Shown here piece by piece: positions 9,181-43,764 of a stretch of 64,000 bases of DNA. Numbering within the stretch: the first letter of the stretch is position 1; every line of letters starts with the position of its first letter. Below the pieces are notes generated by a model. The model was not told the DNA's origin. It saw nothing but the letters and a program-made list of their open reading frames with translations, and made no database searches. Source of the DNA: Massospora cicadina (Eukaryota; Entomophthoromycota; Entomophthoromycetes; Entomophthorales; Entomophthoraceae); NCBI GenBank assembly GCA_022478985.1, contig JAKSZP010015881.1:62001-126000 (forward strand). Reading direction: 5' to 3'. The position numbers were made by a program, and so were the translations under genes.

Positions 9181-11104
9181 TAATCAAAAGCTTTTTTTTT
9201 CCACTCAACATCACTTTTGAGTGAATTTTATTAAAAAAGCATCCATTATATTTCCATCGCCACCTCCACCGTATCAGTTTCCATTTTATGTCAGCGGATC
9301 CGCTACCTGCTGCCCCAGCGTGGGGCAGCAGCGCTCCACCTGCTAGTGTTTTCCGCTCTTCAGGCAAACATGTGCAAACTGGCTCATCCAGTCCGCCTAA
9401 TGCATCAGGCCAATTTGTCCCACCTAGGGACTTATCATTACACTTAGCGCGAGTACACTCAACCCGCCCCCACCCACTAGCCCTACCCCAATCCAATATT
9501 CTCTTTTGCCTCTGAGTTGAATATGGGCATCTCTTCCCATATGCCAACAAAGCGATAATTGAGCTGGCAACATCCACTTTTTCACCAGCGGGATTTATTG
9601 ACTTCCGCCCTTATAAGTGCTATTTTGATATTGGTTTTCCCACTGAAGAGGACGCAGCTGCAGCAGCATCTACGCCCTTAATTTATAAAAACACTCCTAT
9701 TTCCACAACCTGTACACGCCTCCCCAGTGACACCACAATGGTGGTGATCTTTGCAAACCTTCCTTCACACCTTCCGCCTCAAACACTCTATGAAGAACTG
9801 ATGATGAGGCTATCCAAATATGGTACAAACCTCATCCTTCACTTCCTGGTCCCAAGTGGAGCTACAACGGTTAGCAGCACCATGGGCAATGGCCACCATC
9901 ACCCCTCACCATCCAACCATAGCCCAGCACATCCCTCCACGTGCCCATATCTCATATGCATTAGAACACTTCTTTTGGGCTCATGTTGACAACGGCTGCA
10001 CCATTTGTCCCCTATGCCATGAGTTGGATCATTCCAAGAAGTTCTGTAGTTTCAACTTAAAACTAGCGGATTCTGCCAAGCCCACACATGGGGCCACACA
10101 ATCAGCGTTTGAGTGGGGATTTTGGCTGCCCCCACCCCCTCCAGCTGAACGCTCAAAATCAGCAAAACCTTTGCAGCCACAGCCCAAGCCGGCTTAATTC
10201 CAAACAATTTACCCAATCAGGAGCTGGTTTGGACCCATCTTCAGTCCAACCGATTTAACGCCCCAAAAATTACACAACCAAAACCTCGTCCATCTGAGTC
10301 AATAATGCTCAATCAAAATCCCTGGGACCTATTGGATGAAATTACTTAAATTGGGGAAATTGTACCTCCTCCTGACTTTCCAATTAATTTGGAACCATAT
10401 CTACCTTCAAATTTCGATGCCCCATTCCCACCTAAGAAACATATCCCCAAACCCACTGCTACCCCATTTTTGAGTGACCATCAACTTGCTGAAGCCGCTG
10501 TGGCCTCTCCTGATAGCCACCATCTCCATGAAGCTGTGGCACAATCTGTCGCTTAATTTGATAAGGGACTACATTAATCCGTTACCATGATGATTTCCCT
10601 GCTGTTGCAAAGGAGGAAATTGAATGATTAAAGGAAACCGCCATCTCTGCTCTCACGCAAGTTGTTGCGCTGGAAGAATTTTCCCCCACCACGCGCATCA
10701 CCAGAGCCAATATAACCAAATTTACTCAGCTTCCTGATGCATGCATACAAGCTGAACACCATGTTGCCGAATTCCTAGAGGCTATGCTCCAGGCCCAGCT
10801 TGTTAGCAATGAACTTAACCCTTTTCCATTGTTCCTCAATCCTCATCCCGCGGATGCCCCAACCCCTTTGCTCTCAGCTTTAGTCCATCTCTTCATTAAT
10901 GAAGAAGTAATTGATAAGCTGTCTGAAACCTCATCCCCCTCCGCCATGGTGGGATAAGCGGTCCACAACTGCTACACCTGGTTGGCTTGGTTTTCCTTTT
11001 TGTTTTGGTGCTCCACCACTCATTTAGGGCTTTTGGTTTGTGTTTTTTGGTTGATTTTGTATCAGTAATGTCTATCCCCTGGTCGGCTTACCTCAAATAA
11101 ATTT
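9181..11104 (+). mobile_element. H-1, ORF1-only non-autonomous LINE derivative (half-LINE)
   Basis: A 1.92-kb unit flanked by AAGAAGGAGGA (9170-9180) and AAAAAGGAGGA (11105-11115), an 11-bp target duplication with one mismatch. Its 5' end is pyrimidine-rich followed by ACATCACTTTTGAG, as in L-2 and L-3. Its 3' end is TCTATCCCCTGGTCGGC followed by an A/T-rich tail, as in the LINEs. Between them lies one long ORF1-type reading frame and no endonuclease or RT. It interrupts Gy-A gag just before the zinc knuckle. H-2 and H-3 have the same size and plan. Confidence 0.85.
9288..10957 (+). pseudogene. H-1 ORF1-like CCHC protein (broken, about 556 codons)
   Basis: Starts MSADPLPAAPAWGS, like H-2 (MLLDPLPIVPAWGS) and H-3. 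Then PPRDLSLHLA, IDFRPYKCYFDIGF (about 9600), FANLPSHLPP (about 9750), FWAHVDNG and a canonical C-X2-C-X4-H-X4-C knuckle, CPLCHELDHSKKFC (about 10007-10044). The C-terminal half has NPWDLLDEI, FLSDHQLAEAAVASP and the terminal PSAMVG before the stop at 10955-10957. The order HPFW/FWA, CCHC and upstream DLGF/LPTHL matches LINE ORF1, so it is a relative of that protein. A TGA at 9513-9515 sits where H-2 has Arg; at least one frameshift lies near 9820-9960. Confidence 0.82.
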
Positions 11105-11266
11105 AAAAAGGAGGAGAGGCCTAAGTGTAACTACTGCAATAAGAACAAAAATAATGAAGATATGTGTTTTAAGTAAAACCCTGCCATTGCTGAGCAGGGA
11201 AAAGGAAGGTCAACTTAAGGTCAGGTACCTCTAATGCCGACTGACCCAAAGTACCTGAAAGAGAAA

Positions 11267-11741
11267 AATTGCTCTTAGAATAACATTCACTTGACTATAG
11301 CAAAAGTCAAAAATGGGCTCAAATCTATAAACTAGTGGAGAGGTCAATAAAGCAAAAAATTGGGGAGAAATAAACTATTTTATTGAGTTAAAAAGCATCA
11401 ATATTTATAGGATGAGTGGGGATGTTGCTTATGGATCTTTATGACCCCTTTGCAATCAGGATCTTTCACAGCCTTCTAGATCAACTTCCTGGTCAGCGCC
11501 CTCATTGTTCTGCATTGTCCTCGTGTCTGCAATGATGGGGGCCACACCTCTCAAGGTTTGGGAAGCAGGGATGAAATTCATGAACGCATCTCCGTTGATT
11601 CTATGTGCATTATGCTTCCTGATTAAAGCTCTCATTGGTGCCTTCAGTGACAGGTTTTATCTGCACTGGCTTACAAGTCAACTTATAGAGCCCTATTTTT
11701 AAGTAAATATTTAAACTCGCTCATCATCTTGTATTATGACA
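11267..11741 (-). repeat. Gy-B 3' LTR
   Basis: About 475 bp, matching 34212-34688 (e.g. TCAAAAATGGGCTYAAA, AGCTCTCATTGGTGCCTTCAG in the two copies with few changes). The minus-strand start is TGTCATAATAC; the other end near 11267 is placed by alignment and may be off by a few bases. The copies are visibly diverged, so the insertion is old. Confidence 0.82.
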
Positions 11742-11758
11742 ACGCCCCCTCAAGATCC
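11742..11758 (-). other. Polypurine tract of Gy-B
   Basis: On the minus strand CTTGAGGGGGCGT runs directly into the LTR start TGTCATAATAC. A G-rich purine tract at this point primes plus-strand DNA synthesis in LTR elements. Gy-C and Gy-E have comparable tracts. Confidence 0.55.
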
Positions 11759-11989
11759 TGTCATAGGGGGTATAGGGCAAAAGAATTGGCCATATACATG
11801 ATCTACAACTGTTTCCTGACTGACATCAGCAATAAACTACTCCAAGCTCACCTTCTGAATGACATTTATAAGTTCCAGACCATATTATTTCAAGCTTGTT
11901 ATGTCAATCTCCTGGTCAATTGTTATAGAAGAGAATGATGTCACCTAATTGAAAATTTGGTAAGGAGGGTCAAATAACATTAAATTGTG

Positions 11990-14900
11990 ATGTCTCCCTT
12001 TTAGTGATAGTGATAATTCCTTGAGTAGCTAGGGCTTAATGCTGAAAAATTTTATTGGCTAAGGACCTTATAGTTAAATAGGAGTTCTTGGGTATGGAGG
12101 CATTGAATAGGGGCTGATCAATACTTTGGAAATGGGGAGCAAACCCATATAGAGCTGCAAATGGGGACATCTTTATTATTTGATGGTTGCTTATTTGGTA
12201 AGAAAGAAAATCGCTAAGTAAATAATGGTTCTAGCTGTAGGATCAGAAGTGGCCATCTTCCAAAGGATATAAATGAAGTTCTTTTAACATGTTCCACCGC
12301 CCCATTGGTTAAGTATTGTAGGGGGCGGTGGAAATTTAATTAGTCCCAAAATACAGATTTAGTTCTTGAACTACTATGAGGAGAAATTTTATCCCATTGT
12401 CAAAAAGTAAAGTTTGTGGGCGTCCATGATGGGTGAAAATGGATTAAACAAGGAATAGAGCCGTGTCTTTTGCAGTGGCAGCAGCAATGGATTTTCTTTA
12501 TCCAATTTGGCCAAATAGTCCACGACTAATAGGATATAATTATGGTCATATAACCCAGTAGGATGAGTGCCTACTGCATCAATGCTAATGACATTGAAGG
12601 AGCTTTATGGAGCCATGAATGAATGCTGATATCAAGGACTGGCCCAATCTTGGGATTGACAAGTTATAAAAGCCTCTAGAACTATCTGGATGGTCACAAA
12701 ACATCCAATCCCAGTAGCGTCGTTTCTTCAGCCATTTGTGGGCTTTTTAACTACCCCATGTCCCACAGTTGTATGCCCTTCTATAATATCTGTTTGGGAA
12801 GAAGGGCAGATATAAGGAGCCATTTTCTATTAATTTTCTTATAGAGCATTTCCTCTTTAATTTGATTCTCACAGGTCATTTTTCAGAGCTTGGCTTAGAT
12901 CTCAGGAGTCTCTAACTCTCATTGCGTGGGCTGACCAATTATATCATACATTTGTTTTATTTAGGGTTTAGGGAAACGAATAACAGCATCTTCAAGAGAC
13001 CATTGGTGTTCTGATGATTCACTCCTGCACGATTGGCAATAGTATAATAATAGTTCTGCTGCCTTAATGTCCATTTTTCTGACTGGCCATAGGGTCCTCA
13101 TCTGCTGCAGCCATCAAAGAAAGTAATGGTCAGTGATAATGGTGAAATGGGTGCCATATAGGTAGGGCCAAAAATGATTTATTAGCAATAAAATATCTAG
13201 ACACTTGCGATCAATAATGCTATATTTTTTCAAATATTTGCTCAGGGTCTTGCTGAAGTAAGCACAGGGTGATCGACCTGATCTTCATCATTCTGATCTA
13301 GGATGGCCCTGAGATTAAAATCACTAGCATCAGTGAATAGCAAAAAGGGTTTATTGAAGAATGGATGAACTAAACAAGGTTTAAAACAAAGAGCAGTCCA
13401 CAACTCATCAAAGGATTGTTCATGTTAAGGCTGTCACAAAAAGACACATTATTCTGTAAGAGATAGAACAGGGGCTCAGCTAAGTTGGCAAACCAAGGAA
13501 TGAACTGACAATAATAGCACACCATTTTCAGGATTATTATATATCCCTAAGGCTCTAAGGGCGTGACTTCTTTTTAATGGCGTCAACTTTATCTGGGATG
13601 GTCTGATACCATCTTTTGGACTTTGTGCCTAAAAAACTCATTTTTAGATTGTAAAAAAAGCTCTTTGAAGACTTAAGCTTTATTGAGGCCTTTCCAATAC
13701 AGTTAAAGACTTCCCATTGATTTTCCACATGACCCTTGAATGTATGCAAAAAGACAGTGATATTATCAAGGTTCACAAGGACACAGGATAATTTCAAGTC
13801 CCCTAATATCTCATCATTGGCTTGTTGAAATGACATGGGTGCATTGCAAAGGCCATGGGGCATCCTCATTGGCTCAAATAGACCCTAGTTGGCTATGAGT
13901 ACACATTTGTATCGATCATTGGTGGCAAGCTCTACTTGCCAATACTGCTAGTGAGATCCATAGAAGAAAAGCTTTTTTGACCCAGAAAGCAAGTTGTGAG
14001 AGTTGTTGATCCAGAGAAAGGGGTAACTGCCCCTCTTGGTAATGGGGTTAAGTCATCAATACTCCATTACCACAGGATGGCTGCCATCCTACTTACAAAG
14101 TAACAGGAGGGTGGAAGCCCAAGGTCTACGCGACGGCACCAATAGCCTGGGTTCTAGTAGTTGCTTGATCTCAACAACCACCTGAGTCTCTTCATCTTTG
14201 CTTTTTTTGGTAGGGATGGGACCAAATAGGGGAGCGTCCCCAGTCTCCACGTGATGCAAAACGCCATTCATTTTACAGAATTGTAGGTAGAAGTTGATAA
14301 GAGGTCTGAGTATTCCTCCAATAATTTTTAACCTGGATCTGTTGCTCATTATGAGGTCCTGTCCAATTCAAATGTTTAGAGCTATAGATGGGGGTGTTTC
14401 TAACCCAAAATCACTTGGACTTCCAAAGCTAAGGACTTCATTTATGGCACTACAGAAAGGAGGCAAACATAAGCGGCTGGAATATTAGGCCAAAAAATAG
14501 TAGCTTTGTCAGTGAGGTTAGCCAGAAATGCCAATATGGATTCATTATAGGCAGGATTTATATTCCTGGACAGGTCAGAGACTCCTTGATGTTTAGATAA
14601 TTAGGCCTCACATTTCAAGCAGTTGTTTGAAGAAATAATGTTAAGAACTCGGGTGTCAATGATAGCTTGGGACTTTGGTGGTATAATGGTCGTCTTAGGA
14701 AAATAATAGGCATGCCTTCTTGGCTATCTACTGCAGGAGGGGGTATATTTATGCAAGAGCCCCTTACATGATACTTGAGAAAGTTGATCTGGCTTATTTC
14801 ATTAATAGTCAAGCCCAAGTATTGACCTCCATCTTGGCATCGCTGCAGTTTTCAAAAACCAGTGGGATCAGGTGTTCCAATAGCTATAAGATTACACTAT

Positions 14901-15400: not shown

Positions 15401-15419
15401 GAAAGCTCTTTTCCCACCT

Positions 15420-16545
15420 TGTTAAAATATGTATAATTTCCAATTATTCTCATCCAATAAACCCTATAAATGTATTAACTGCACAGGTTCAGTTGTGCAC
15501 TTCTCCGCTTTGTTTTGATAGTGAAATATAATCGTTGATAATAGTATGGAGACTATTATCTGTATTTAAATTGTAGTACTAGATTTTGGTCTAATGCTCG
15601 GCCAGTATTTCCTCTCAAATTACTTATGATGTCTTGAATAAGGATTCATTCCCTGGTACCACTTAACACAATCTACACTCAGATCCTTGCTTATGGTTTC
15701 TCTTTGATAACACAAAGTTGACAGCAATCCCCTAATTCAATTCAGCTTCTTCTCTGGATCCTTACTATTTATCCCAAAGAGTCTCCCAATTTGAACAGAT
15801 AGAAATAATTTCCTTGAGAAAGAATAGAACTCAAAATGGATTCTGATAAAGTATACTAAGATACTACTCTGGTAATTGATCTGGTAATTACTTAAAGTTT
15901 TTTATTAGTGAATTCTTTAGGGAATCTATAATAGGAATTTAGTGCCTAACCCTTGGTTAGCACCTCCTCAATAAAATGGAAGCCGTTGCCATTTTTTCCA
16001 TCCTTATCTCAGCATCCATGGTCTTCCCCATCCTGGCTAGGATTCCATCATTGTACATCATCAAGCCCTAAAATGGAAAGAGTCAGAAAACGTTTCTCTA
16101 ATGTTTTCCTCTTGATCCCAGTGAACCAACCATATTTGGCAAGTTACCTGCTTAGGTAATGGTACTTGTTACCCATTAAGGCAGGTCACAAACCAACTGA
16201 TTGTTTCACTAGTTTCAGGCAGCATCAATCGCCTTACAACTTGATCCTTAAATTCCCAATCAGTAGATGATGAAACCCAACTGATACCAATCAGTACACT
16301 TGATATATCAATTATTGATCTACTATCAGATGCCCCTATTTCATCAGCAACTCTGCCAACAAGATCTTAAGCATTTGTCAGGATTGATCCCCAATGGATC
16401 TGATACAGGCGAATAACATAAAATCACCCAAACATTACCACAAAATCAGGGCCAACCAATATATAATTCACTTCACATTAGGGAATTATCCCCTAGCAAT
16501 CCCTCATAATCTAGTCAGCTGGGAATATGGGCAAAAATCCTAACA
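15420..16545 (-). repeat. Gy-C 3' LTR
   Basis: A 1126-bp repeat, nearly identical to 31152-32268 over long runs (for instance around 15485-15590 versus 31210-31320). On the minus strand it starts TGTTAGGATTTTTGCCC and ends TTTTAACA, the TG...CA ends of an LTR. A G-rich tract (GCAAGAGGGGGATG, 16546-16559) precedes its start, which identifies this as the 3' copy. Confidence 0.92.
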
Positions 16546-16767: not shown

Positions 16768-18687
16768 TTTTTTTATTTAAACGAGGTAAGCTGACCAGGG
16801 GACATACATTACTGAACTAAAACTAAAAATCATACTAAAAAATAATGATTTAAACAAAATACCCAAAATGGATGGATTGATTGAATCATACCTAACAAAA
16901 TATCCAACCAGGTGGGCAGCGAATACTGCTATCCATCCATGGTGGACGGGGAGGGGGATTGGGGGGGCTCATCTTTGGCCGCATCCATCTCATCCCAGAG
17001 TAGGGTGCGTTTTAAGGCAGATAGTAAGGGTGTGGGGGCATCGGCAGTATGGGGTTCAATATCCTTAATGACTGGAACTTCTGAATAGTTGCCAGCCATC
17101 ATAATGCCAACGATGTCTTTAGCCAAAGCGTCTTCAGCTTTGAGGTGGGCGTCTGGGATTTTAATGAACGTGGAAATGTTGGTTCAGGTTAGTTTTGCTT
17201 TCAGATTCTGTGATACTGTTACTATGTTCTGGATGGCTTCAGTGAGATTTTTGTGTAAATTTTCATGTTGAACTTACTTTGTGCAGTAAGATCTTTGGGG
17301 ATAGCAGGAGGTGGAATTCCTCCTGCGAGTGCAGCCACAAATTTGGCGGCAGCTCTGCAGAGTGCATTGCAATCTGGTGTGGCGGCTGCTTCTACTGCAA
17401 GCTGGTGATCGCTGTAGAATGGTTTGGCGTTAGGTTGTGGGGCATATTACTGAGGTGGGATTTTGCATCCCATTCTGCATTACAGAGCCACTCAACTTTC
17501 AGCGATGGTTCTTCAACGATGTTACCTAATTTGTCAATTTCATCCAAATACTCCCATGGGTTTTGGTTGAATTGGATTGGGGAATCAGCATATGGTTGAG
17601 GATTGGCTGGTTTTTGGAATTTGCTTGAGATTGAACTGGGGTTCAATCCTACACTTGATTGGAAGAATCATGCGTGGCCCTTGGGATAGGTGGATGCTGA
17701 TTGGTGGCTGTAGGTGCAGCTGCAGCATCAGGCATTGTAGGAGGGGAAGGTAGGATTGTACCCCATATTGGAGTTGGCGTGGGGTGGGCGGCGGATTGAT
17801 GGGCATCAGGCAAACTTTTAGCATCAGCAGAAGTTTCTTAATATGGGCATTTGCATTTTGAGTGGTCTAACAAAAAACAGAATGTACAAATCGTCCATCC
17901 GCCCTTGACACAGGCCCAGAACGGATGGTCCGGGCAGATGGGATGGTGGCATGAGGTGGAATTGCCAAACAAAATTTTAGTGAATTCAGGGCTGATCGTG
18001 GCATACGCCTGAGGCCCAGCAAGGCGTGTGGCCCAATTTGGGACCACAAATTGCAAGGTGGGGTTGGCGGCGTAGGCTGCGTAACCTTCCATCAGCTCCT
18101 GATGGAGCACTTCAGGGGAGGTGGGTGGGCAAACCAGCGAACTGGACCATCAAGGTGGTGTCCGTTGGGAGCCAGGTCTGAGTTGTTGGGAGAGAAATAA
18201 TGTTCAATATTAATGGCACTGTTGCCGCAGTGGCTGCATCAGCTTTACAGGGGAAGCCAAGATCAAAGTACCCCTTGTAGGGGCGGAAGTCAATAAAACA
18301 GGCTGGTGTCATCACCACCTGAGCCATTTTGATAATGGCTTGGTCATCGTAGGGGAAGAATTTCCCATATTTGACCCTAAGGCCAAAATGCATGTTGCTC
18401 CGGGGAGCACCAGGGGGCAGCAGGGCACCGCTTGGGTTCAGGTAAGATGGGCATCAAGATCCTTGGGAGGAATGAATGTCTCAAGGGTTTGGAATGACTG
18501 TGAGAGCCAGTCAGAGCGCGTTTTCCTGTTGGACGGAAAATGGAGGGGGAGTTTCGCCACTGCCCCATGCTGGGACAATTGGCAGGGGATCCAACAACAT
18601 TGGAGCAAGACTTTGGTGTGCAATTAAGTGTTTGCTTTTAATTTACCAGATAAATTGCTTGGAAAGTTAAGCCGAGCAGAGAGAGAG
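16768..18687 (-). mobile_element. H-2, ORF1-only half-LINE
   Basis: A 1.92-kb unit flanked by a perfect 13-bp duplication TCTGGACTGATCA (16755-16767 and 18688-18700). On the minus strand it begins with a CT-rich run and GGCTTAACTTTCCAAG, and ends with ATGTCCCCTGGTCAGCTTAC then CTCGTTTAAATAAA. It contains one ORF1-type frame and no ORF2. Same plan and length as H-1 and H-3. It sits in the spacer between pol and the 3' LTR of Gy-C. Confidence 0.88.
16929..18600 (-). pseudogene. H-2 ORF1-like CCHC protein (broken, about 557 codons)
   Basis: Starts MLLDPLPIVPAWGS. After a frame change near 18.5 kb: FIPPKDLDAHL, then LRVKYGKFFPYDDQAII, IDFRPYKGYFDLGF, VQFAGLPTHLPPEVLH (about 18.12 kb), HPFWACVKGG and the canonical knuckle CTFCFLLDHSKCKC (about 17.87-17.91 kb). 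The second half has NPWEYLDEIDKLGNIVEEPS and FYSDHQLAVEAAATPD and ends PSPSTMDG before the stop at 16929. It matches H-1 and H-3 along its whole length. Three or more frameshifts make it a pseudogene. The protein presumably binds RNA, as inferred from the CCHC and LINE ORF1 likeness. Confidence 0.82.
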
Positions 18688-20215: not shown

Positions 20216-20327
20216 AGGATAACTAATAAAAATAAAAATTATAAAAATAGCTTTTCTTTCCCGTTATTATCACTTTTAGTAACACAATTCTACGCAATTT
20301 CTCCAAGATTAACAATCAACCTGGAAT

Positions 20328-21720
20328 ATGAGCAAATTTGTCCGCAACAATACCAGTTGGGCAAAAGTGGCCAGCATGTAAGGCCCAAAGCCCTCCAAAC
20401 CCACTGGAGAAAAATGCCCCGGTGGAATGTTGACACACCCTCCCACCAAAAAGGGTGAGTACAGCACCGCACCCAGAGTTTTGCAATTCCTGCAAAAAAG
20501 GGCGCATATACCAAAATCGAACACTCCTAACCCTTGTCCTCCCTTGAGCACGGCCTTAGAATTATGGTCAGCGATACTTCCCTTAAATCATGGGGAAGAA
20601 TGGGGAGGCCTTCTCCACGACTTTCCTGAACACCATCTCAGTAAATTACAAAAATCTACACAGAGGATGGGTTGACGTCAGGTTTATGTCCACAGAAGAA
20701 GCAGTGGATGCAGCAAAATTTAAATTCTCCATAAAAATTAACAATAAAGACTGCACCATCTTCATGGTGCGCACGCGATGGAATGAGGAAAACGACCTAT
20801 TCATGATATTTGACTGACTCCCAAGCACCATGCACCATAATATTCTTGTGGACGAACTCCGCGGGGGCCTCAAAGGTTATGGAGTAATCAAACAGTTCAA
20901 ATTTGAAAAATTCCCCCTCCTGCCCCACCTGTGCACAGGAAAGGCAATAGCCATTATTGAACTGGATCAGGATGTGGCAGAGGACATCACCCTCATTCCC
21001 CACATGGTGACCATCAACCTCCCCAATGGCAGCGTATCTTGCCCCTTCCATATCACACCAGAACACACCCCACCTATCTGCGAATTCTTCTCAGCAATAG
21101 GTCACAAAGACCATGCATGCCCTGTCAAGTGCGGGATTGAAGCACCAGAATTTTGTGAGGACAATATGGATAAAACAAGCCCAACTTTCGGCAAAATTAA
21201 GGACTCCACCTTTGCCTTCTATTGGGGCGAAAGAGCTGATATCACTTTGGTTGAGCCCATCTCGTGCAAGGACCACTGTCATGCACAGACTGCCCCAAGC
21301 AGGCCATGAGTTCTGCTAAGACCCAAATTCACACCACAATTTCCACGGAACAAATTCAGGCAGATTTCATGGCAGCACAGCGGAATAACCAATCATATCC
21401 CCCACATAAAACCCAACACAACCAAAATGACGAATTTTTTGGACACAACCAATCAAACACCTCCAACCAAGTGGGAGCAGATCCACATTGCACCAATGGG
21501 GATCCTCCCAGACAATCACATTCTAGGCGATGATATGGAAGACCACTTCAGCCAATCACAATGTGACAACACCTATGCACAAGACCCAACCACCCCAACT
21601 CCTAGTTTCTGCCCATTAAACCCACAGGCAAGCGGCAAAAAAATTTCTAATGGGGAAAAAAGCCAACCCACGCCAGACCCAAAATCCATGGAGTAATCCA
21701 AGCCAGAAGAAACTGAACAA
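20328..21720 (+). pseudogene. L-2 ORF1, zinc-knuckle protein (broken)
   Basis: From ATG at 20328 (MSKFVRNNTSWAKV) the frame holds THPPTKKGEYS, then shifts near 20590 to WVDVRFMSTEEAVDAAKF and MVRTRWNEENDLFMIFD, which match LDLGFENKEAADEA and RTRW in L-1. After a TGA at 20815-20817 it continues LPSTMHHNILVDELR, PHLCTGKAIAIIEL, CPFHITPEHTPPIC. The knuckle is CEFFSAIGHKDHAC (about 21079-21120): the second Cys of C-X2-C-X4-H-X4-C is Phe, so zinc binding would be lost. The tail has PTKWEQIHIAPMGIL and GDDMEDHFSQSQCDN, parallel to the acidic L-1 end. Confidence 0.8.
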
Positions 21721-21844
21721 TTCCAGCACCAAGGCCGCAGACCAACACACTGGAATAAATCTGGCTAGTCAACCTCATACTCGCAGTATGACCTGCAATA
21801 AGGAACTGGGTGACCTCAGTGGGTCACCCCAGCGTTCCTGATGT

Positions 21845-24800
21845 GTGGACTACTGCAATCAACATAGGGACGCTCAACATTGTGGAAGCCAAGGCCCCTC
21901 ATGTCTCAGGCCAAAAAAATGGCTTTCCCACACAATATCCCCGTGGACATCTTGGCCATCCAAGAACACACCACTGTCCACCGGGGGAGGAGGAGTCATG
22001 GTCAACCATGCTCCTCCCAGACAAATCCTTTTGGACACACCATTGTGGGATGGTAATTTAAACAAACTGTAACCCTCCAGTAAAAATCCAAAGCACATCC
22101 TCCCACCTGAAGGGATGGCTGCTCCTAGTGAACCTTGAGTGGAATGGAGAAAATTTTGCCGTGGCATGTGTGTATGCCCCAAATGATCTGAATGACCGCC
22201 AAAATTCTTTTCTGATATCCTCTCAATCCATCTCTCCGAGGCAACGTTTTTCATGGGAGATTTCTACTGCTGGCTTAACACCAATACTGACCGCTGGCTC
22301 AAGTCTAGGGCTATACCCCGCGGCCACACAGAACTATGCATACTAAAGGCAACGTTGGGCCTATGTGACACCATTCCCAAACAAGCCCCCACCATCGCCA
22401 ACATGACGAGGCCCCACCACAACAATAACCAGCTGGTCTCAATGACCTGGATTGACCTGATGCTCGCCCCTATAGACTTCTGGCACCAAGTATCAAACTT
22501 TACAACAACAATTATCCCTTTCTCCAACCATCGAATAGTCTCAATAGCGCTATCATCCTCAGAAAAATATGAAAAACCACCAACCTGGCACAGAGTTCAC
22601 CCAAGCACCATCCACCTTCTGGAGCTTAAACTTTGGATCAAGATGGTGCTAACAACACAGCAAGAAAGACAAACACCTGATGGGAATCCTATCACCAAGT
22701 GGGAAATATTCAAGGCTCATGCAACCAAGAAAGCCTGCCACCTAAACTCCAGAAAAACAGCTGCAATGTCTGCGACAATCAACAAGGCTATCAGACAGCT
22801 TCAACACTTAGAAAACAACACACCTCATGAGGGATACACCCCCCAATGGGGCTGCCTGTGGTTCCAGCTATCGACACAGGTAAACTCCCTCTTTAGGAAA
22901 CACCAGCAATACACTGAAGTATGCTATAAATCAAAATACATTTTATCCGGAGAAACTCACACAGCCCAATTTTTCCGCCATTTTAAACCAATTTCAACAT
23001 CGTTGACCTGCACACAGGTCCGCTAAGCAGATGACACAATGGCATCTACACCATTGGAAATATCAGCTGAATTACACCGATTTTACACTGACCTGTACAC
23101 AGCAGATTTTGCATCACCTAACGAAATTGAAAATTTTTTATCATCCGCTAATATCAACACTATAGCTGGCCAACTAGACCTTGCAGCACCCATAACTAAA
23201 GATGAACTATATGATATAATAAGATCAACCTCACGCAACAAGTGCCCTAGCCTTATGGCCTCCCATATGAATTTTTCAAAAAATATTATAAACATATCGC
23301 ACCAATACTACTGGCAACTATGAATAAGTGCCTGGAAGACACATCCCTTCTACCTGGTGGCCAAGACGCATATGTGGTCACACTTTTCAAAAAAGGAGAC
23401 CAGGCAGATCTAAACAACTGGCGCCCAATTGCTCTCACCAATACCGACACTAAAACACTAACTAAAATTTTAGCCAAACGTCTGGGTTGCATTGCTCAGA
23501 CAATCCTCTCCCCGTCAATTTGGATTCATCCTAAATCGCTCAATTTGGGATAATATCCACACAATTGCCAACATCTGACAAGCTAACCCCACAGGCGCCC
23601 TTGCTTTTCTGGACCAAAAGAAAGCATATGACTGAGTACACTGGGGATACCTAGAACAATGTCTGAAGGCTTTCAACCTACCACCCCGCTTTATAAACTG
23701 GGCGCTCCTCCTAACGCGCTCATCCAAGTTTTCAATCAGAGGCCCAGATTTCCTAACTGACACCATCACCCCCAAAGGGGCCTTAAAAAAGGTGACCCGC
23801 TTAGCCCCCTACTATAAAATTTTACCCTTGACCCCCTCCTCCGCATTACAAACTCAAAGCTCACTGGAATCAGGTTGGAGGGACAACCACCAACCAAAAT
23901 GCTCGCCTTTGCTGATGACTGCTTTGTTATAGTCTCAGGCAATAGGGATTCCAGGGCGATTGAGCGCATTATTCACCAGTATGAGTCAGTGAGTAACGCC
24001 ATGCTGAACAAACAGAAAACAGAGGTAATTGTTATGGGCAAATTCAGTTTTAACTGGGCCCCACCCTCCCACCACCACACAAACCAACCAACCACACATC
24101 CAACCACACAACAACGATCCAAGCCAGTAAAACCACTGTGTTTACCCTTTGCACACCACCCTGCCACCAACCCAGTCCGTCATCTGGGCATATGGCTCGA
24201 AGCCAGTGGATATGCACTTGACACCATAGAAACCAACATTTTGGACAACATCACAAAAAGAATGACATGTATGCGGAGGAGTAAAGCCAGACTAACCGGA
24301 AGAGTTGTATTAGCCAACTCCCTGATCCTATCAAAGTTATGGTTTGCTGCCCACGCGATCCCCTTCTCCGCCAATTTTACCAACGCAGTCTACAAGCTCC
24401 TGCAGAACTGGCTATGGTCTAGATACCGTGCACCTGTCAGGCTGGAGACCATGTATGGCCCACTGAAGAGAGGCGGGATGGGGCTGCTCAACTTCACGGA
24501 AAGAGCTACGCAAATCCTAGGCTCATGGATAGCCTCCACGACGTCACCCAACCCACCATCCCCCCACTGGGCCAAGGCAGCCCAAACCAATTTTGCAAAG
24601 GCACTACATCTGAGGTCCCCCTCCAACCCGGCGACCCTGATGAAGTACCTTGTAACACACCCAAACGCCACTGGACCACACAACACCAATTGGTATTTCA
24701 AACGCATCCTATACAACCTAAGACAAGGGGATTGGAGCTTCTCCTATGCACAGCAATCCAAAGACATTCACCCTCAAACTGGATATGTGCAACTCCACAG

Positions 24801-25449
24801 AGGACAAAAGGTGTCTAACGTACCTGCCCCATTACCACCCTTCCCTCTGTCCAGGATCGACTACCTGGACCACCAAGACATCCAATATGAACTACAAACC
24901 CAAAAACTGGTGTGGAACATCGTCACCTGTCCCCTCCTATCCCCACAAGTATGCTCCACAATGTGGCGATACATGCGCCATACATATAGAACAGCTGACC
25001 ATACTTTCTCAATGTTCAAGACATGCGCCATCTGTGATGGACCCAACACACTAGCACACCGCCTGGAAGAGTGCCCGCCATCTGCGCATATCTGGGCCAA
25101 CGTGATGCACTTGTTTTAACAATCACTTACAACAAGATTCCAACTATCCTGCGATATCATGGCACTCAACATGGCCGCACCTATCCCACAGACACTGAGG
25201 GCTCTAATTTTGTGCATTACAATATGGTCCATTCACACAATTACCCTTGACGCCTTCAACGGGATCTTCCACAATTTTAACCAAGCCATCATCAGGTTCC
25301 ACAGCCATTTGGCTGACCATTTTCAAGCCTGGCTGTTCGGCTCACTCCAACAAAAATGGAAGAAATGGATGGGCACCTGGATTTTAATCTGGTTCCTTCG
25401 TTATGACATTGAAAACCTCACAGTCTTCATAGGCGGTACACCCTACTAG
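21845..25449 (+). pseudogene. L-2 ORF2: APE endonuclease, reverse transcriptase, zf-RVT (broken)
   Basis: Endonuclease remnants: IGTLNIVEAKAP (about 21866), GDFYCWLNTNTDRW (22256), WIDLMLAP and SNHRIVSIAL (about 22535). RT: NWRPIALTNTDTKTLTKIL (23418-23475), a frameshift near 23515, LDQKKAYD followed by TGA at 23633-23635 where L-1 has Arg, and the catalytic FADD (about 23905). A long intact frame, 23875-25119, covers the RT end and thumb (GRVVLANSLILSKLWF, GGMGLLNF) and the C-X2-C-X7-H-X4-C finger CAICDGPNTLAHRLEEC. After a short break, 25159-25449 encodes the C-terminal domain with IWSIHTITLDAF, as in L-1 and L-4. Confidence 0.9.
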
Positions 25450-25954
25450 CCCATGATTTGCCATGCTACTCAAGGTCTAGTCACCCACCACCCGTGGCCC
25501 CCCAGCCACACCAAAGTGTGCCAAGTCGTATCTTTTGAGTTCCTTTGTTTTGTGATCTCTTCCCGTTTCTGTTTCCGCTTTTTCTGCTCCTACATATTAG
25601 ATGTGTCTGTCCCCTGGTCAGCCATCCTCGTATTAATAATAAAAATTATTAAATTATATCGTTTTTTATGCATTTTTAATAATCTTATAATATTTTTATC
25701 AATCTTTTATTTTTTCTTCTTTTTTTCCATGGGACTTGACTTTTCTTTGGTTCAGCGGTCCATCTTTTTATTTTAATCCCCCAAACTGGATCCTAGGTAT
25801 ACTTAGACCTACCATTTTTATATGGTTTATAGGTCTTATTTTTAAAGATTTAACCATCTAGTTTGGTTCAGTGGTCTATTTTTCAGACTTAACTAAATCA
25901 TTAGAACATAACCAACTTAATGGTTCAGCAGTCCTTAAGGAACTCTTTTTTCTT

Positions 25955-31149: not shown

Positions 31150-31151
31150 AT

Positions 31152-32268
31152 TGTTAAAAGTTATATGTTTTCTGATTATTCTCAGCCAATAAACCCTATA
31201 AATGTATTAATTGCACAGGTTCAGTTGTGCACTTCTCCGCTTTGTTTTGATAGTGAAATATAATCGTTGATAATAGTATGGAGACTATTATCTGTATTTA
31301 AATTGGAGTACTAGATTTTGGTCCAATGCTCGGCCAGTATTTCCTCTCAAATTACTAATGATGTCTTGAATAGGGATTCATTCCCTGGTACCACTTAACA
31401 CAATCTACACTCAGATCCCTGTTTATGGTTTCTCTTTGATAACACAAAGTTGACAGCAATCCCTAATTCAATTCAGCTTCTTCTCTAGATCCTTACTCTT
31501 TATCCTAAAGAGTCTCCCAATTTGAGCAGAAAGAAATAATTTTCTTGAGAAAGGATAGAACTCAAAATGGATTCTGATAAAGTATACTAAGATACTACTC
31601 TGGTAAATGATCTGGTAATTACTTAAAGTTTTTTATTAGTGAATTCTTTAGGGAATTTATAGTAGGAATTCAGCGCCTAACCCTTGGTTAGCACCTCCTA
31701 AATGAAATGGCAGCCGTTGCCATTTTTCCATCCTTGTCTCAGCATCCATGGTCTTCCCCATCCTGGATAGGATTCCATCATTGGACATCATCAAGACCTA
31801 AAATGGAAAGAGTCAGAAAACGTGTCCCTAATGTTTTCCTCTTGATCCCAGTGAACCAACCATATTTGGCAAGTTACCTGCTTAGGTAATGGTACTTGTT
31901 ACCCATTAAGGCAGGTCACAAACCAACTGATTGTTTCACTAGTTTCAGGCAGCATCAATCGCCTTACAACTTGATCCTTAAATTCCCAATCAGTTGATGA
32001 TGTACCCAACTGATACTAATCAGTACACCTGATAATTAAACAACTACCAGATGCCCCTATTTCATCAGCAACTCTTTCTGACAAGATCTTAATCATTCAT
32101 CCGGAGAGATCTCTGACAGATCTGACCCATACTAATGAATTAAAATCACCCAAACATTATTACCCCAAAATCAGGATCAACCAATATCCCACTCACTTTG
32201 CATTAGGTCATTACCCCTAATGATCCCTGGTAATCTAGTCGGCTGGGAATTTGGGCAAAAATCCCAAC
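31152..32268 (-). repeat. Gy-C 5' LTR
   Basis: Partner of 15420-16545. Minus-strand start GTTGGGATTTTTGCCC (the expected first T of TG lies at a changed or lost base) and end TTTTAACA next to the PBS. It should contain the element promoter and polyadenylation site, but I could not place them. Confidence 0.9.
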
Positions 32269-34155: not shown

Positions 34156-34191
34156 TTTTTGATATAGACGTTTTCACTTGGACAGCTTGGA

Positions 34192-36690: not shown

Positions 36691-37523
36691 TGTTGAAATA
36701 CAAAAGTATCATAATATTGGGAGAGAGGCAATCCAGACGTTGACATTCTCAGGGAAACTGAAGCGCAGAAGGTCGCAAAAGGGACAGCGCCAGGCAAGAA
36801 GTGTAACAACAAGGCAAAGTGACCAGCAAAAAGAAGCAACGTTGTAGGCAAACTTGGTTGTGTTTTATCTAAATTGGGTATATAAAAACACACATCAAAC
36901 TAACGAAAACCATCAGGGACATGAGTCTCCAAGAGTGGGGAAGGTAGCCTAAGAACTGTGGCGAAGATGTGGCAAAAGAAGAAATGGCGGAGTAAGCAGA
37001 ATAGGCCGTGGTGCGGGTGGGAAGGTTTGCGCTCAACTTGGGAGTAAGACCAGGGTGGGAAAAGTACTCCAGCCATCATGATGATAACAACCAAGTTTTT
37101 CTTTATGAAAATAAAAATTGGGAAACTGGTGCAAAAATATATAAACTTTATTTAATTTAACTGTTTATCTGAGAAAAGCAAAGCCTTTTTACATCTTGGG
37201 CCTAAAATTTAAAGGGAAGTTTCTCTATGATTTCAAGCGATCAAAGAAACTTTATCTGAGCTTTAAATTTTCTCCTTTCAACATAAACAAACTTTTATAA
37301 ATTTGTATGAACTCCATAGCTTCATAATGCGTGAATTTCCAGATTTTCTGCCTATGGCGAGCTGTTTCCCTCAGCCCTGGATGGCAAAGTCAGAACCCAT
37401 TTCTGGTCAATGACCTTAAGGAGATCATCATTTACCTTTAAGGGTTCTGTCCTTGACTCCAAGGGCTTATTTGACTTTGCTTTAGTGGGGCGTTTAACAC
37501 CTTAAATATCAATAACTGTGACA
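36691..37523 (-). repeat. Chr-D 3' LTR
   Basis: About 833 bp. Minus-strand start TGTCACAGTTATTG at 37523. It shares CAGAACCCATTTCTGGTCAA and TTTAACTGTTTATCTGAGAA with the right half of the 5' LTR (51786-52185), and AGCGCCAGG and CACACATCAAACT/CGCACACCAAACT with the left half (44698-45171). The outer boundary near 36691 (TGTTGAAA) is from alignment. Confidence 0.78.
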
Positions 37524-37689: not shown

Positions 37690-40550
37690 GGTCATGTCTC
37701 AATGGGATACCAGCTGTACTCAGTCTCATCATGAACTTTTCAGGACACCAGAAACTGTAGGCGGCATCAGGATAGGCGGAAAGTAAGAACCGCATTAATA
37801 TAATATTGGGATTCGCCATCTACCATGACAGGCTCAGGATGGGGCGGCATGGGACCATCGAAGGGGGTCAGGAGGCACTCATTTAGATGCTGAACACTTT
37901 GATGGAAGGGGTAAGTCAGCCTGGTAAGCTGACGGACCATCTTCTTGATAACCTTGAAGGGTCCAACATGCTTGGTGCCTAAGTTTAACTAGGCTGCTTC
38001 AGGTGGATGTTCTTGGCGTTAACCATTACTAAGTCTCATGGCTTGTACTCAGGGCCTTTGCGGCGCTTGCGGTCAACATATGCTTTGTAGATCCTCACAG
38101 CGTCAACAAAATGAACCTTCAATGCCTTGTGTATGTCTCTTTCTATAGTGCTTATTGGCAGCTTCAACGGTGGACTCAATCCGCAGACTTAGATTGAAGC
38201 TGGGATTGTACCAGTAGTTTTCAAAAAAGGCGATGTTCCTGTAGATGTATGAGTAAGGTTATTATAGGCGAATTGCACCAGTGGAAGGTGAGAGGCCCAA
38301 TTGTTCTGTGCAGCGTTGGAATAACTACGCAAGAATTGCTCCAAACCTTGTTCACCCTCTCCATATACCCATCCGGTTGGGGGTAAAAGGGTGTAGAGCG
38401 GCTGTTTCAGATGCCTGAGATGAACAGTAAGGCTTCCCAGAACTGTGGCAGTAATTTTGTGGGTCGTGATCGCTGATAATCTCCTTTGAGAACTCTTGTA
38501 AACAAAAGATGTGGTCTACAAAAAAAGCGGGTTGTCTTGACTGAAGTAATGGTACTATTGCAGGGGATGAAATAAGTCATCTTTGTGAAACAGTCCACTA
38601 CAACCTTTACTGCATTATAACCCTGGGAAAAGGGGAGTTTCACAATAAAATTGACAGGCATTGATATCCTAGCGCCCTCCACAGCTTGGAGGGGAACAAG
38701 CAACCCAGATTTCTTCAAGCGCTATGCTTTAACCAGTTACACGTCAAACAGACTTAGTGAATTTTGACACATCTGTGGCAATACTCATACAACTGTAGGA
38801 GCGGCGTACCAACTCAAGCGTCTTATCCTTTCCAAGGTGGCCAGCAGTTGTAGGGTCATGAGCTTCACAAATCACCTCCTCTCTCAAGGGTCCAGGTAGT
38901 ACCCACCACTTGCCTTGATAAAGGATGACCATATCTAGCAACTGGTAACCTTTTTTCAGGAGTTCTCCATTTCTATGGAAGGCCTGTTTAATCTTGTCAT
39001 AGTTAGTCAAAAGGGATTGGGACAACATAACGCAGGCAGGGGTATCAGTATTCCCTTATAGAGGTTTCATCATAAGTAGAACGAAGGAGTTGGCCAGTGG
39101 GCTTTTCTTCACCTGTTTTGGAAGAAACACCAACTGGGTATTGTAGGCATCAACTAGTGTTGGGTCAGGAGCGAAGGCAGGTTTATGGGATAGGGCATCT
39201 GGTAATAGGTTTTGAGTACCCTTAATGACTATATCGGAAATCAAACACTGACAAGATTTCCAACCACTGGGACTGGTGAGGGGATAAATTCTGGGGATGT
39301 GGTAGTACATCAACGCCTTGTGGTAAGTGCGGACACTAAAGGGCCACTTGGACCCATGCAAATGGTGGCGCCAGTGCTGTACCGCCTCAACAACAGCAAG
39401 GAGTACTTTACCATAAATCGTGTAGATGAGCTGCGCATGGGACATCTTCTTAGGAAAGTAAGCAACAGGCCGTTCCATTCTTATCCTCCCCCTCCAGCAA
39501 GAGTGCATCTCCCACCGCAAAGTTGGAAGCGTCAGTGGCAATAATAAATGGGCGGCTGGGGTCTGCATGTGCTAACACTGGGCTGGACAAAAGTATGGAG
39601 CCAATGATGTGGAACGCGGCGTTGCATTCTGTGGTCTAACTGAAATTCTTCTTCCGTGATGTGGTGTAGAGAGGGGTGGCAACTTCTGAGAGCTAAGGTG
39701 GTGAACTTATTGTGAAAATTAGATGTCCAAGGAAGCTGCGTAGCTCTGTGAGAGATGAGGGAGTAGCCCAATTGCAGATGGCTGCTTCATTTTATGGGAC
39801 AATCATGTGGCCATGGGAGAAGATAATGTTATCTAAGAACTTAACCTTGGACTTTATAAACTCGAACTTGCTAGTCTTGATAGGAAGTTTGCCTGTGCAA
39901 GTCGCCGCATGATGGATACAATGTGGCGGGGTGAGATTCTGCATCTAGGGAGAAGACTAGTATGACATCCATATATGAGATCGCGCAGGTTCCTAAAAAG
40001 TATCTCAGGGCAGCATCCGAAACTCATAAGGAGGTGGTGGCATTTTTGAACTAAACAGCATGACCCTGAACTGTTAGATGCCTTTCTGAGTAAAAATCTG
40101 TCAACCGTTAATAATATTCTTTAATGAGCATCTGGTTGAAGGTGTTAAGGCATTTCAGCTTGCTGAACACCCTAGCCCTCTCCACGTAAGCTGGCAATCT
40201 TCTACTCCAGGGTGAGCAGTGGAGGTAAGGTATTGTGACGTTACTCAGATTGCCATAAGCAATGCAGGGATGTATGGAGACATTAGTTTTCTTTGCAAAT
40301 AGGAGGAGGAGCACACCGGCAAGGACCTCTTGAAGATTTGACCCTTAGAGCATTCCATCAACCCAAACATCTAAGGCAGCCTCCTCTCTCAAGCACAAGG
40401 GATAAATTGGAGAGAATATCTTCATGTGGTCAATGTTAAACTTAAATTTAAAGACAAAATTAGTGTGAAGAGGGTTTGGGAGGGCCTTAGAGGGATCAAA
40501 AAGGTCCGCATATCCGTGTATGCATTCAAGCTGGATAAATACCAAGGTTG
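37690..40550 (-). pseudogene. Chr-D pol: RT, RNase H, integrase, chromodomain (broken)
   Basis: Read downward. RT is heavily decayed: LDVWVDGML near 40.35 kb and the catalytic box as SYMDVILVFS (about 39.96 kb), where the second Asp is Val. RNase H (39056-39568): KKMSHAQLIYTIYGKVLLAV, WRHHLHGSKWPF and DALSHKP. Integrase: REEVICEAHDPTTAGHLGKD (39744-39028 region, H2-type finger, its Cys pair lost), NFIVKLPFSQGYNAVKVVVD, FAYNNLTHTSTGTSPFF. The C-terminus has KHVGPFKVIKKM, then the chromodomain, with EYSWYPIE at its end (about 37.70 kb). Chromodomains bind modified histones and steer integration into heterochromatin. In-frame stops throughout. Confidence 0.85.
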
Positions 40551-41158
40551 GGGTGACAGACGGTTATATTGAGGCTAAGCCCACCTTAGGAGATGGGCCC
40601 CACCTTTTAGGGAGCGCCATTGCGCTCACATCCAGGCAAGGGATGGTACCATGACTCCTCCAGGGAACTTGGCATATATAGTAGAGCCCACGAGGTTGGT
40701 GAAGATGTCAAATTATTACATCAGCCAACACCTGGATAAAGGGGTACAGGAGGTTTTTAATTGATGATAAGCTCTCTATAGAATACCCGTCGCCTGAAAC
40801 AAAAGAAACAGGTGATAGTACACAGTAGCTCGGAATGGTTCGAGATGAATCACCTTTCACAAACTGACCAACACCCAGAAGTAGATCCTGGGCCTCCTCC
40901 AGCTCTTGACATATGAAGTTTTCAGTAGCGACAGTGTCTCCAAAGTGAGAGCTTGGAAATTTTCCCTGCAGTGGAGAAAGTAGCCATGTTCAAGAATTAC
41001 GCAGAGAAGGATTTATTTTCTATGAAAGCCAAAGGAGGAGAGGATAGCTTCAAGCCCAGACGGTGGAGTGTAAGAAAGAGTATCCCCTGATGATTCAACA
41101 CCGTATGACTTCACATTAATAAAGAGTTTCAACATGATTTAAATGTAGTAGGGTAAAT

Positions 41159-43096
41159 CTCTTTTCCACTTAGAGTAACTTTTGAGAGATTTTAACTAAA
41201 AAGAAGTAAAAGCAGTCTAACTAGCCTACGCCTACCTCCCCTTTCACTCCCTGATGACCTTGGATTCTCCGCCAGCTGCTCACATGTGGGACAGTGGCAA
41301 AACCCCACCCATCATTATCCGTCTGTCAGGAAAAATCTCTTGGAGTGGTTCATTAAATCCCACTAAATCATCAGGTCAGTTCATTCCACCCAAAGATCTC
41401 GCCATCCACCTGGCATGTGCCCAGGCAGTACCTTGCAGCCCACTTGTTCTCCCCCAATCCCAGCTGCATTTCAGCCTTCAGGTCAAATATGGGAAATTAT
41501 TACCATATGAAAAGAAAGCCATTATTGACTTGGCCCAGGTGGTGATGCTGCCGACCAGTTTTATAGATTTCCGCCCCTATAAAGGGTATTTTGATCTAGG
41601 ATTTACTTGTGAAGCTGACGCCACCACTGTGGCCACCATATCCTTGTTTTTCGGGGCACCCCTATCCCCACAACGCGCACCTGGCTCCTCACTGACACCA
41701 CTATGGTGTTTCAGTTTGCAGGGTTACCCATTCACCTTTCCCCAGAGGTGCTCCATAAGGAGTTAATGGATGGTTTGGCCGCGTACAGATCCAACCTCAT
41801 CCTTCAGTTTGTGGTCCTCAATGGGGCCACTCGCCTCACTGGGCCTCGGGCGTTCACCATGATTAGCCCAAATTTTAATAAAAATGCTTTGTCAATTCCC
41901 CCATGCTGTCATTCCCTCTGCTTTTAACCACCCATTATGGGCCCGCGTTGAAAACAGGCGAACCATCTGCCCATCCTGCTTTGAGTTGGATCACTCAAAG
42001 CGTAAATGCCCTCTCTCAATGCTTCCGCTGGACCTGTGTTGTCTCCATCTGGCCCCCAGTTGGCCACACACCCCACTGCCTTTCTGGTATGGGATACAAT
42101 CATTCCCCCCGTCCCACAAAGCCTGCTACCACTACAGTGCCTGCAACTGCCAATCAGCCTCCTGCTCATTCCAGTGATATCTGCACCTCAACCAATCAGG
42201 AATCAGCTTGGACAACAGTTTGATCCCACATTATTATTCAATCACCAGCCACAGCCCATCAATAACCCCAATTTCCAATTCGACTTGAACCCATGATCTT
42301 CATTGGATGAAACTGATGAAATGGGCAATGTAATTGAAGATTTGAGAACCCAAATAGAAAAATTTATACAAGTACAGCACCCTATTCAGATCTCTTGGCA
42401 TTTTTACACCCTCCGACCAAACGCCTCTGTGTTCTGCTCTGACCACCAGCTCACTATTGCTGCAGCTAGAAAACCCAGTAATACTGACATCCATAAGATA
42501 GTTGATTTGTCAACATTGAGACTTGCCAAGGCTCTCCCTCCTCCCATTATTGCTCTGACCATAGCCTCACAGGGCAAACATGCCCTCCTAAACCTTCACA
42601 AACAAGCAAATGCCGCCATCCAGAAAGTTAGTATTATTTGAGGCCAATTAGAAAACCATCCGCGCCACCATAGCTTTATTATCCCAGCTTCCTTCCATCC
42701 GCTTTCATGTGGAGACATGCTTTTCCAGATACCTAAGTTCAATTTTTTATGCAGGTAATCTTGACAATCAGCCAACCATCAGCAAACTCATTCCCCATGT
42801 CGCTGATCACCCCACACCATTGCTCTCCAGTTTTGCCCACACTCTTGCCTATGAGGAGGACTCTGATCCTGAGGATGAGCCACCCAATCCCCCTTCCCCT
42901 TCCGCCATAGTGGGTTGAGTGACTCCTGGCTGTCCCACCTGGTTGGTTGTATTCTCGTTCAATTTCTGTTTCACTTACTTGCTTTGGGCGCTCAATAATT
43001 CTGTTCATATAGGTCCATTAGTTCATCTTTAGCTCTTCAAGCTTTTGTAATGTTCATCCCTGGTTGGCGTAACTTGAGGATGTAGACTTTTGAGTA
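41159..43096 (+). mobile_element. H-3, ORF1-only half-LINE
   Basis: A 1.94-kb unit with flanks TAGTAGGGTAA (from 41146) and TAGTAGGTTAA (from 43097), an 11-bp duplication with one mismatch. The 5' end CTCTTTTCCACTTAGAGTAA is followed by ACTTTTGAG, as in H-1. The 3' end has TTCATCCCTGGTTGGCGTAA, a diverged version of the shared tail. It lies in the gag region of Chr-D, in opposite orientation. Confidence 0.85.
41254..42918 (+). pseudogene. H-3 ORF1-like CCHC protein (broken, 555 codons)
   Basis: The first frame (41254-41690) starts MTLDSPPAAHMWDSG and runs through FIPPKDLAIHLA, LQVKYGKLLPYEKKAII and FIDFRPYKGYFDLGF. A frameshift near 41650-41700 leads to VFQFAGLPIHLSPEVLH and LTGPRAFTMISPNF. 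Another leads to HPLWARVENRRTIC and the canonical knuckle CPSCFELDHSKRKC (about 41968-42011). The next frame has MDETDEMGNVIEDL (42303) and FCSDHQLTIAAARKPS (to 42641), and the last (42709-42918) ends DSDPEDEPPNPPSPSAIVG. The conserved DEPPxxPSPS end is shared with H-2 and H-4. Only three or four lesions, so this is one of the better copies. Confidence 0.85.
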
Positions 43097-43475
43097 TAGT
43101 AGGTTAATATAATGCTCTATGTTTGGCAGTAGGGGGATCTTTATCACAAGAAACTACATTATTCAGGACAGCATAAAGAGTTCCTCTTAATCATCTTTTT
43201 CATGAATATCTAACCATTCCTGGATAGTGTCTGACAAGAAAGGTGACTCTGGAATGATAGGAAAGAGTTTTTAAACTGGGCTAACTGGTATGGCAGGGTG
43301 GACAGGAATAATAGGTTCTTTAAAGGCAACCAAAGGTTTGTGGCTAAAGTGAAGTAAGTGCTCTGAGTCAAATGGGTTAGACTTACTAGTCCCCTCAAAG
43401 AATTGAGGACAAAAGTGAGGGGTACTCTGTGGAGTGCAGCGGTACAGAGCCAGTAGTGAGAGACCCCAATATAAT

Positions 43476-43764
43476 TTTTAATTTTCTTATGAGGCATGCC
43501 AACCAGGGGACAGACATTACCAAAGCGTATAAAGCGACAAAACAAAAACTGAACAAACTAACTAAAATCTCAGATTGAAAGAAAACGACCATTCAAAGAA
43601 TGGGCGGATATAACTATTGAGACACCTATCTACCAGGTGGGATAGCGCCGAGGCGCTCATCCTACCATGGCGGAAGGGGAGGGGGATTGGGGGGCTCTTC
43701 CTCAGACTCATTCACCTCTTTGGTGAGAGCACGAGCCAAGGAGGAGAGCAAAGGGGTGGGGTGA
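43476..43764 (-). mobile_element. H-4, 5'-truncated half-LINE
   Basis: A 289-bp insert flanked by a perfect 19-bp duplication TGAGAGACCCCAATATAAT (43457-43475 and 43765-43783). On the minus strand it carries only the last ORF1 codons (ending PSAMVG, stop at 43657-43659) and the 3' UTR with CTGTCCCCTGGTTGGCATGC. 5' truncation with an intact 3' end and long target duplication is typical of LINE-type target-primed reverse transcription. The perfect duplication suggests it is among the youngest insertions here. Confidence 0.92.

Follow-up and report, generated by a model that had tools for sequence, protein, structure and literature searches.

The stretch of DNA analysed here (the window) comprises 64,000 nucleotides, bases 62001-126000 of contig JAKSZP010015881.1 in assembly GCA_022478985.1 of Massospora cicadina, a fungus described as a cicada parasite (PMC9584336). 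It contains four copies of a retroelement, here called H, which carries a single open reading frame (ORF) of the ORF1 type and ends in a 3′ tail like that of long interspersed elements (LINEs). Three of the copies are complete 1.9-kb units and the fourth is truncated, as an initial annotation made from the sequence alone had proposed; its unit positions hold to within two bases. It was silent on strand, and H-2 and H-4 were found on the minus strand. The copies, with their target-site duplications (TSDs), and their main parts are as follows.

9181..11104, plus strand: H-1, complete ORF1-only element, ORF broken; TSD 9169-9180/11104-11115
16768..18687, minus strand: H-2, complete ORF1-only element, ORF broken; TSD 16755-16771/18688-18704
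41157..43096, plus strand: H-3, complete ORF1-only element of an older group, ORF broken; TSD 41146-41156/43097-43107
43476..43764, minus strand: H-4, 5′-truncated, spanning the end of the ORF and the 3′ tail; TSD 43457-43475/43765-43783
9288..10957, plus strand: ORF1 of H-1, broken, start codon inferred; predicted tandem RRM-like part, CCHC knuckle and C-terminal helical part
9202..9223, plus strand: 5′ terminal hairpin of H-1, loop with TCACTT
11070..11094, plus strand: 3′ terminal core of H-1, 23/25
16783..16807, minus strand: 3′ terminal core of H-2, 24/25
43491..43515, minus strand: 3′ terminal core of H-4, 21/25

End-to-end alignment of H-1, H-2 and H-3 gave 51-58% nucleotide identity, and H-4 aligned with the 3′ ends of these three. 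The mismatches were strongly 3-base periodic, with 0 of 2000 shuffles as high in each of the three pairs. The TSDs matched at 11/12 letters in H-1, 16/17 in H-2, 10/11 in H-3 and 19/19 in H-4, and an equal score was reached by 29, 1, 83 and 1 random 50-mer pairs per 2000 draws, respectively; the TSDs of H-2 and H-4 are thus clearly beyond chance, and those of H-1 and H-3 are weak taken alone. The frame of about 555 codons annotated for each complete unit is broken in every window copy: translation met many stops and frameshifts, and no ORF of 250 codons was found at the window H units. From the ORF stop to the CCCTGG of the tail there are about 120-140 nt in H-1 to H-3. The window units leave no room for a second ORF (ORF2), and the stop passes to a LINE-type tail with no endonuclease (EN) or reverse transcriptase (RT), as had been annotated. 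An H unit starts at a 5′ end that bears a short hairpin and continues with a single ORF of about 555-570 codons, a brief 3′ untranslated region (UTR) and a LINE-type 3′ end.

To place these copies in their family, we used the 1.47-Gb assembly of 16,968 contigs; the published M. cicadina assembly is given as 1.488 Gb, built from nanopore and Illumina reads, with 92% transposable elements (PMC9584336), and L1 LINEs are put at 6.3% (PMC10515909). Searches scored the best 29-100 places per query, for H-1, H-2 and H-3 the best of 9,727, 12,172 and 10,790 loose candidates; these sets may overlap from query to query and do not stand for copy numbers. The H-1 query matched at full length at 40 of 40 scored places (86-100% identity; 86-92% without its own copy), the H-2 query gave a one-piece full-length match at 36 of 40, and the H-3 query reached base 1895 or beyond at 23 of 40, own copies included in each case. 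Three groups were fetched, G1 (20 of the 39 other H-1-like places), G2 (20 of 39 H-2-like) and G3 (10 of 39 H-3-like). A younger group, G5, was found by protein search with an annotated Massospora protein (417-aa query): out of 104,808 loose candidates, the best 100 each had at least 90% identity, and the matched stretch was stop-free in 69 of them. The 20 best G5 loci, selected by the N-terminal protein, were excised; their average difference is 4.05% and their length about 1,895 bases, a value extrapolated for two loci lacking the common 5′ end. Within G1 and G2, copies diverge pairwise by a mean of 9.6% and 12.2%, respectively.

In G1 and G2, the TSD outscored each of the 39 mispairings for 32 of 40 copies; these 32 include two 8-base matches, of which one lies off the expected ends. 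In G5, it outscored each of 19 mispairings for 17 of 20 copies. The second TSD base was A in 23 of 30 contexts, one of which came from a wrong locus, and the flanks are AT-rich too. Full-length relatives, common ends and TSDs across the genome bear out the initial view of a true transposing family, amplified as a unit of constant length, rather than a set of chance deletions. As a separate observation, G1 copies showed transitions at CpG in 20% of cells and at other C/G sites in 3.9%; this excess, about fivefold in G1/G2 copies, suggests cytosine methylation or a CpG process like repeat-induced point mutation in the fungus.

The 3′ end of H recurs in LINEs of the same window.

1..5035, plus strand: LINE L-1, cut by the window start; candidate partner type
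20235..25650, plus strand: LINE L-2, with ORF1 of another lineage, EN, RT and the same 3′ end; candidate partner type; limits approximate, from copy similarity
63137..64000, minus strand: 3′ end of LINE L-4, which continues past the window; candidate partner type
4990-5014, 25605-25629 and 63137-63161 (minus strand): the same 3′ core at the three LINE ends

A 25-base core string, taken from these same elements, matched the window six times at 18/25 or better (H-1, H-2, H-4 and the three LINE ends), and 20 simulated windows gave five matches in total, the best 19/25. H-3 scores below 18/25, its tail being visible in alignment alone. The core reaches at least 18/25 in 20 of 20 G1, 19 of 20 G2 and 19 of 20 G5 copies. 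The L1-type LINEs L-1, L-2 and L-4 have the 3′ end in common with H, as well as a homologous RRM-CCHC part, but differ from it in having EN-RT and an ORF1 of another lineage. Genome-wide, the 5.1-kb L-2 query was covered at 27 of 29 scored places (87-95%) and the 2.4-kb 3′ query of L-4 at 38 of 40 (90-95%); since the similarity of these copies to the window copy is close to that of G1 and G2 copies to theirs, there were partners of comparable age.

At the 5′ end, none of 200 shuffles folds as well as the H-1 hairpin (z −4.7), and a short hairpin with NACTT in the loop starts many H copies and L-2. The stem differs in its letters from group to group but stays paired: GCTCAA:TTGAGC in G1 and G5, GCTCGG:CTGAGC in G2 and GTTATTA:TAGTAAC in L-2. 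Measured against shuffles, G5 has a strong stem (0.2%) and G1, G2, G3 and L-2 have suggestive ones (5-10%), with nothing above shuffles in L-4 (43%). In plain 5′ sequence, L-2 and L-4 are similar to G1 and G3, with 0.4-4% of shuffles as good, and sequence comparison thus makes a shared 5′ end likely for part of the family, namely two of the four groups.

Between the ORF and the 3′ tail, no LINE match was found in any of the 20 G5 loci (L-1 and L-2 pieces as queries, E ≤1e-3). These loci were chosen by the N-terminal protein, and their 3′ structure was therefore not preselected. EN and RT, which would mark an autonomous LINE, are accordingly present in 0 of 20, and the situation that the initial annotation had named as fatal to its proposal, ORF2 between the ORF1 stop and the tail in most copies, was not encountered. 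An intact ORF was also looked for: two of the 20 G5 loci have a complete ORF of 568 codons ending in SSPSAMVG, and the window copies have none. H is not a short interspersed element either, as such elements have an RNA polymerase III-derived head and no coding sequence, whereas H has an ORF under purifying selection; no tRNA call and no Rfam match was obtained in the 64-kb window.

Selection was estimated as the ratio of nonsynonymous to synonymous differences (dN/dS) from Nei-Gojobori counts with Jukes-Cantor correction, which is applied here near saturation, so that absolute values are rough. Compared codon-wise (20 versus 20 copies), G1 and G2 gave 0.25 in the ORF frame, against 1.55 and 0.84 in the wrong frames; the segment values were 0.22, 0.12, 0.56 (in the linker that follows the knuckle), 0.24 and 0.24. 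The C-terminal part is thus constrained between G1 and G2 (0.24), the one group pair tested for it. For all four groups, eight copies each were taken from the 20 of G1, 20 of G2, 10 of G3 and 20 of G5, two G5 copies that lacked the common 5′ end having been excluded beforehand. Five of the six group pairs gave 0.19-0.30 over about 350-373 N-terminal codons, with 0.90-1.64 in the wrong frames; G1-G3 was not computable because synonymous differences exceed saturation. The ratio below 1 that the initial annotation had proposed as a check is therefore found between groups. Within groups the ratios were 0.70 and 0.52, nearer neutral, as expected after insertion. Purifying selection on ORF1 in elements that are free of ORF2 implies that H depends on the ORF1 protein it encodes and not just on the tail.

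The groups also form a single lineage. A tree built from eight ORF1 pieces put the five H pieces in one clade (local support 1.000) apart from the ORF1 of L-1, L-2 and L-4. Between 12 and 17 bases after the ORF end, CCCACCTGG or a close variant occurs in each of the four groups, as well as in H-1 to H-4 (four G5 copies and two each of G1, G2 and G3 were compared with the window copies). A second hairpin was noticed directly after the ORF1 stop, before the CCCACCTGG stretch, for example at 43644-43657 (minus strand), with stem letters differing between groups; compared with shuffles, it stands out strongly in G5 (0.7%) but does not reach significance in G2 or G3, and among the G1 rows none fitted the pattern used.

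Elements with LINE-like 3′ ends and an ORF1 distantly homologous to that of LINEs would also result if ordinary LINEs had repeatedly undergone internal deletion by chance, every such deletion being a dead end. However, the structure, the ORF end and the start of the 3′ UTR are the same in four diverged groups, dN/dS is about 0.25 with synonymous sites near saturation, and the sampled LINEs L-1, L-2 and L-4 carry another ORF1 lineage; this origin is very improbable and already largely refuted. Another explanation is that an autonomous LINE with an H-type ORF1 plus ORF2 exists or existed and carried the selection, the H groups being its short forms. Three LINE types were examined and only the best places per query were scored, which leaves some room for such an element, but ORF2 is absent from all 20 loci not selected by their 3′ end (one young group) and in each of the four groups the C-terminal part leads into the same 3′ UTR start, so that we consider it quite unlikely.

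The ORF1 protein gives a further indication of what H does. The model of its N-terminal part has a mean predicted local distance difference test (pLDDT) score of 60, with core blocks mostly at 78-88 and dips to 48-65, and reads as two beta-alpha-beta-beta-alpha-beta units of RRM-like type. Twenty PDB matches were obtained at E ≤0.001, most of them described as two-RRM proteins (HuR, hnRNP A1 UP1, IMP3); they also included Sxl, U2AF65 and two U6 snRNP chains, which are likewise RRM proteins. As the TM-scores are low (0.19-0.24), the matches leave the arrangement of the RRM domains unsupported. Together with the CCHC knuckle, which is C-X2-C-X4-H-X4-C as initially annotated, the modelled tandem RRM indicates a putative nucleic-acid-binding, Gag-like protein. 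For 27 A1 members, Pfam comparison at E ≤0.5 listed six families, none of them known as an L1 ORF1 family. All 18 protein database matches to the H N-terminal alignment are labelled Massospora cicadina.

Profile comparison with LINE ORF1, using profiles built from two to four sequences a side, gave two collinear matches, at E 2e-4 (probability 47%) and 5e-6 (86%), and no match in the two crossed pairings. H ORF1 thus appears to be a distant homologue of LINE ORF1.

The C-terminal part is modelled as a helical bundle, with pLDDT blocks of 72-93 over residues 91-180. The initial annotation had suggested that this domain may serve a function of its own; it is under purifying selection between G1 and G2. 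A likeness to FAT-type helical bundles did not reach significance (best Foldseek E 0.6), and we claim no function. The SDHQLA motif was likewise considered as a remnant of a LINE endonuclease (FSDHQLV in L-1) and rejected, as the profile comparison covered only 8 columns at E 0.084. Conceivably, a host RNA-binding gene was the source of the C-terminal domain or of the whole ORF, through a template switch that produced a chimeric retrosequence bounded by LINE ends; this would be compatible with mobilisation in trans. The C-terminal part has no match among the LINE pieces compared, and the tandem RRM is a common fold in host RNA-binding proteins; on the other hand, the RRM-CCHC part is collinear with LINE ORF1, and the two protein matches to the C-terminal part among the candidates listed are both Massospora hypothetical proteins. 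We regard a host capture as unlikely.

H is composed of constant-length units with TSDs, its examined copies lack ORF2, its 3′ end is shared with LINEs and its ORF1 has long been under purifying selection. In our reading, to which we give a probability of roughly 0.85, H is one clade of non-autonomous non-LTR (long terminal repeat) retrotransposons that supply their own ORF1 protein and use the endonuclease and reverse transcriptase of LINEs in trans. It is from the shared 3′ end only that we infer mobilisation by a LINE ORF2 protein. H RNA would be transcribed from the 5′ end and its ORF1 translated; the protein, with two RRM-like domains, the CCHC knuckle and the C-terminal helical bundle, would bind its own RNA in cis to form a ribonucleoprotein particle. 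The EN/RT of a LINE with the same 3′ end would then nick at A-rich sites, and the ORF2 protein would accept the common 3′ tail and start target-primed reverse transcription there. More tentatively, H may be an ancient satellite lineage, long diversified and never with a polymerase of its own, whose H-specific helical domain of ORF1 evolved to capture the ORF2 protein of several LINE families with the same terminal signals; this is possible rather than probable.

Several points weigh against the reading of H as one non-autonomous clade that uses LINE enzymes in trans. The scored DNA matches are biased toward full-length copies by the design of the search, and the search in which no ORF2-bearing LINE with an H-type ORF1 turned up was not exhaustive. 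The complete ORF is missing in 18 of the 20 young G5 copies, through real decay or nanopore homopolymer error, which are indistinguishable at the short homopolymers where the G5 frame is often broken. The ORF1 of H has only 20-27% identity to that of L-1, L-2 and L-4, and only one of 13 H pieces gave a direct match to L-4 ORF1 (E 1.3e-6, 49 residues). At the 5′ end, folding of L-2, L-4 and the window copy H-2 is no better than that of shuffles (z −1.0, −0.6 and −0.3), and the shared 5′ end carries less weight because the likeness to LINEs is borderline in G5 (7-9% of shuffles as good) and absent in G2 (50-57%).

Other features of the window concern neighbouring elements. At 46964-48934 (minus strand), in a more distant LINE, L-3, the start of the EN-RT ORF has a long Leu-Ser microsatellite joined to it in frame, and a 378-bp tandem duplication of 93% identity (50518-51195, minus strand) lies upstream of that ORF, perhaps in the L-3 ORF1. 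Direct repeats of about 1 kb at 15419-16437 and 31151-32159, 15.7 kb apart and mostly 94-97% identical (76% in the last piece), are probably the two LTRs of one element, inside which H-2 and L-2 are nested. A 136-base direct repeat, 85% identical, lies at 37366-37501 and 52025-52160.

The closest known parallel to H is HAL1 of mammals, described as a non-autonomous L1 derivative that encodes only the ORF1 protein and arose independently several times (PMC5753468). Like HAL1, H has an ORF1 without EN/RT, and in this respect it is of HAL1 type in the broad sense; the proposal of a counterpart in architecture is thus supported. Unlike HAL1, H forms a single old clade whose ORF1 is a lineage of its own, with RRM-RRM-CCHC and a further C-terminal domain; HAL1 proper has a mammalian L1 ORF1, whereas the host of H is a fungus, and H is apparently of separate origin. 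HeT-A of Drosophila is also reported to lack ORF2 and to encode only a Gag-like protein (PMC11698117). However, it forms arrays at telomeres, whereas the examined H copies are dispersed singly with TSDs and not head to tail. In powdery mildews, EKA/AVRk1 is presented as a large fungal family from LINE ORF1, whose effectors evolved from truncated LINE copies (PMC4641428); H copies, in contrast, are complete transposing units. A non-autonomous retrotransposon of barley powdery mildew is described as the source of a peptide with an action in the host (PMC6022598). It resembles H in being fungal, non-autonomous and coding, and is set apart, as far as that description goes, by a peptide that is not a LINE ORF1. 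Among the open-licence papers found on HAL1 or half-L1, on LINEs that are non-autonomous or ORF1-only, on transposons of Massospora and on ORF1 effectors of mildews, we saw no fungal ORF1-only LINE family.

If this reading is true, the half-LINE life style evolved outside mammals as well, and it persisted long enough for synonymous sites to become saturated while selection kept the ORF1 protein. Why a parasite of LINEs keeps ORF1, for which cis preference is one answer, would become testable, with H as a natural comparison to HAL1 and HeT-A. H also offers an origin for 18 annotated 'hypothetical proteins' of Massospora cicadina.

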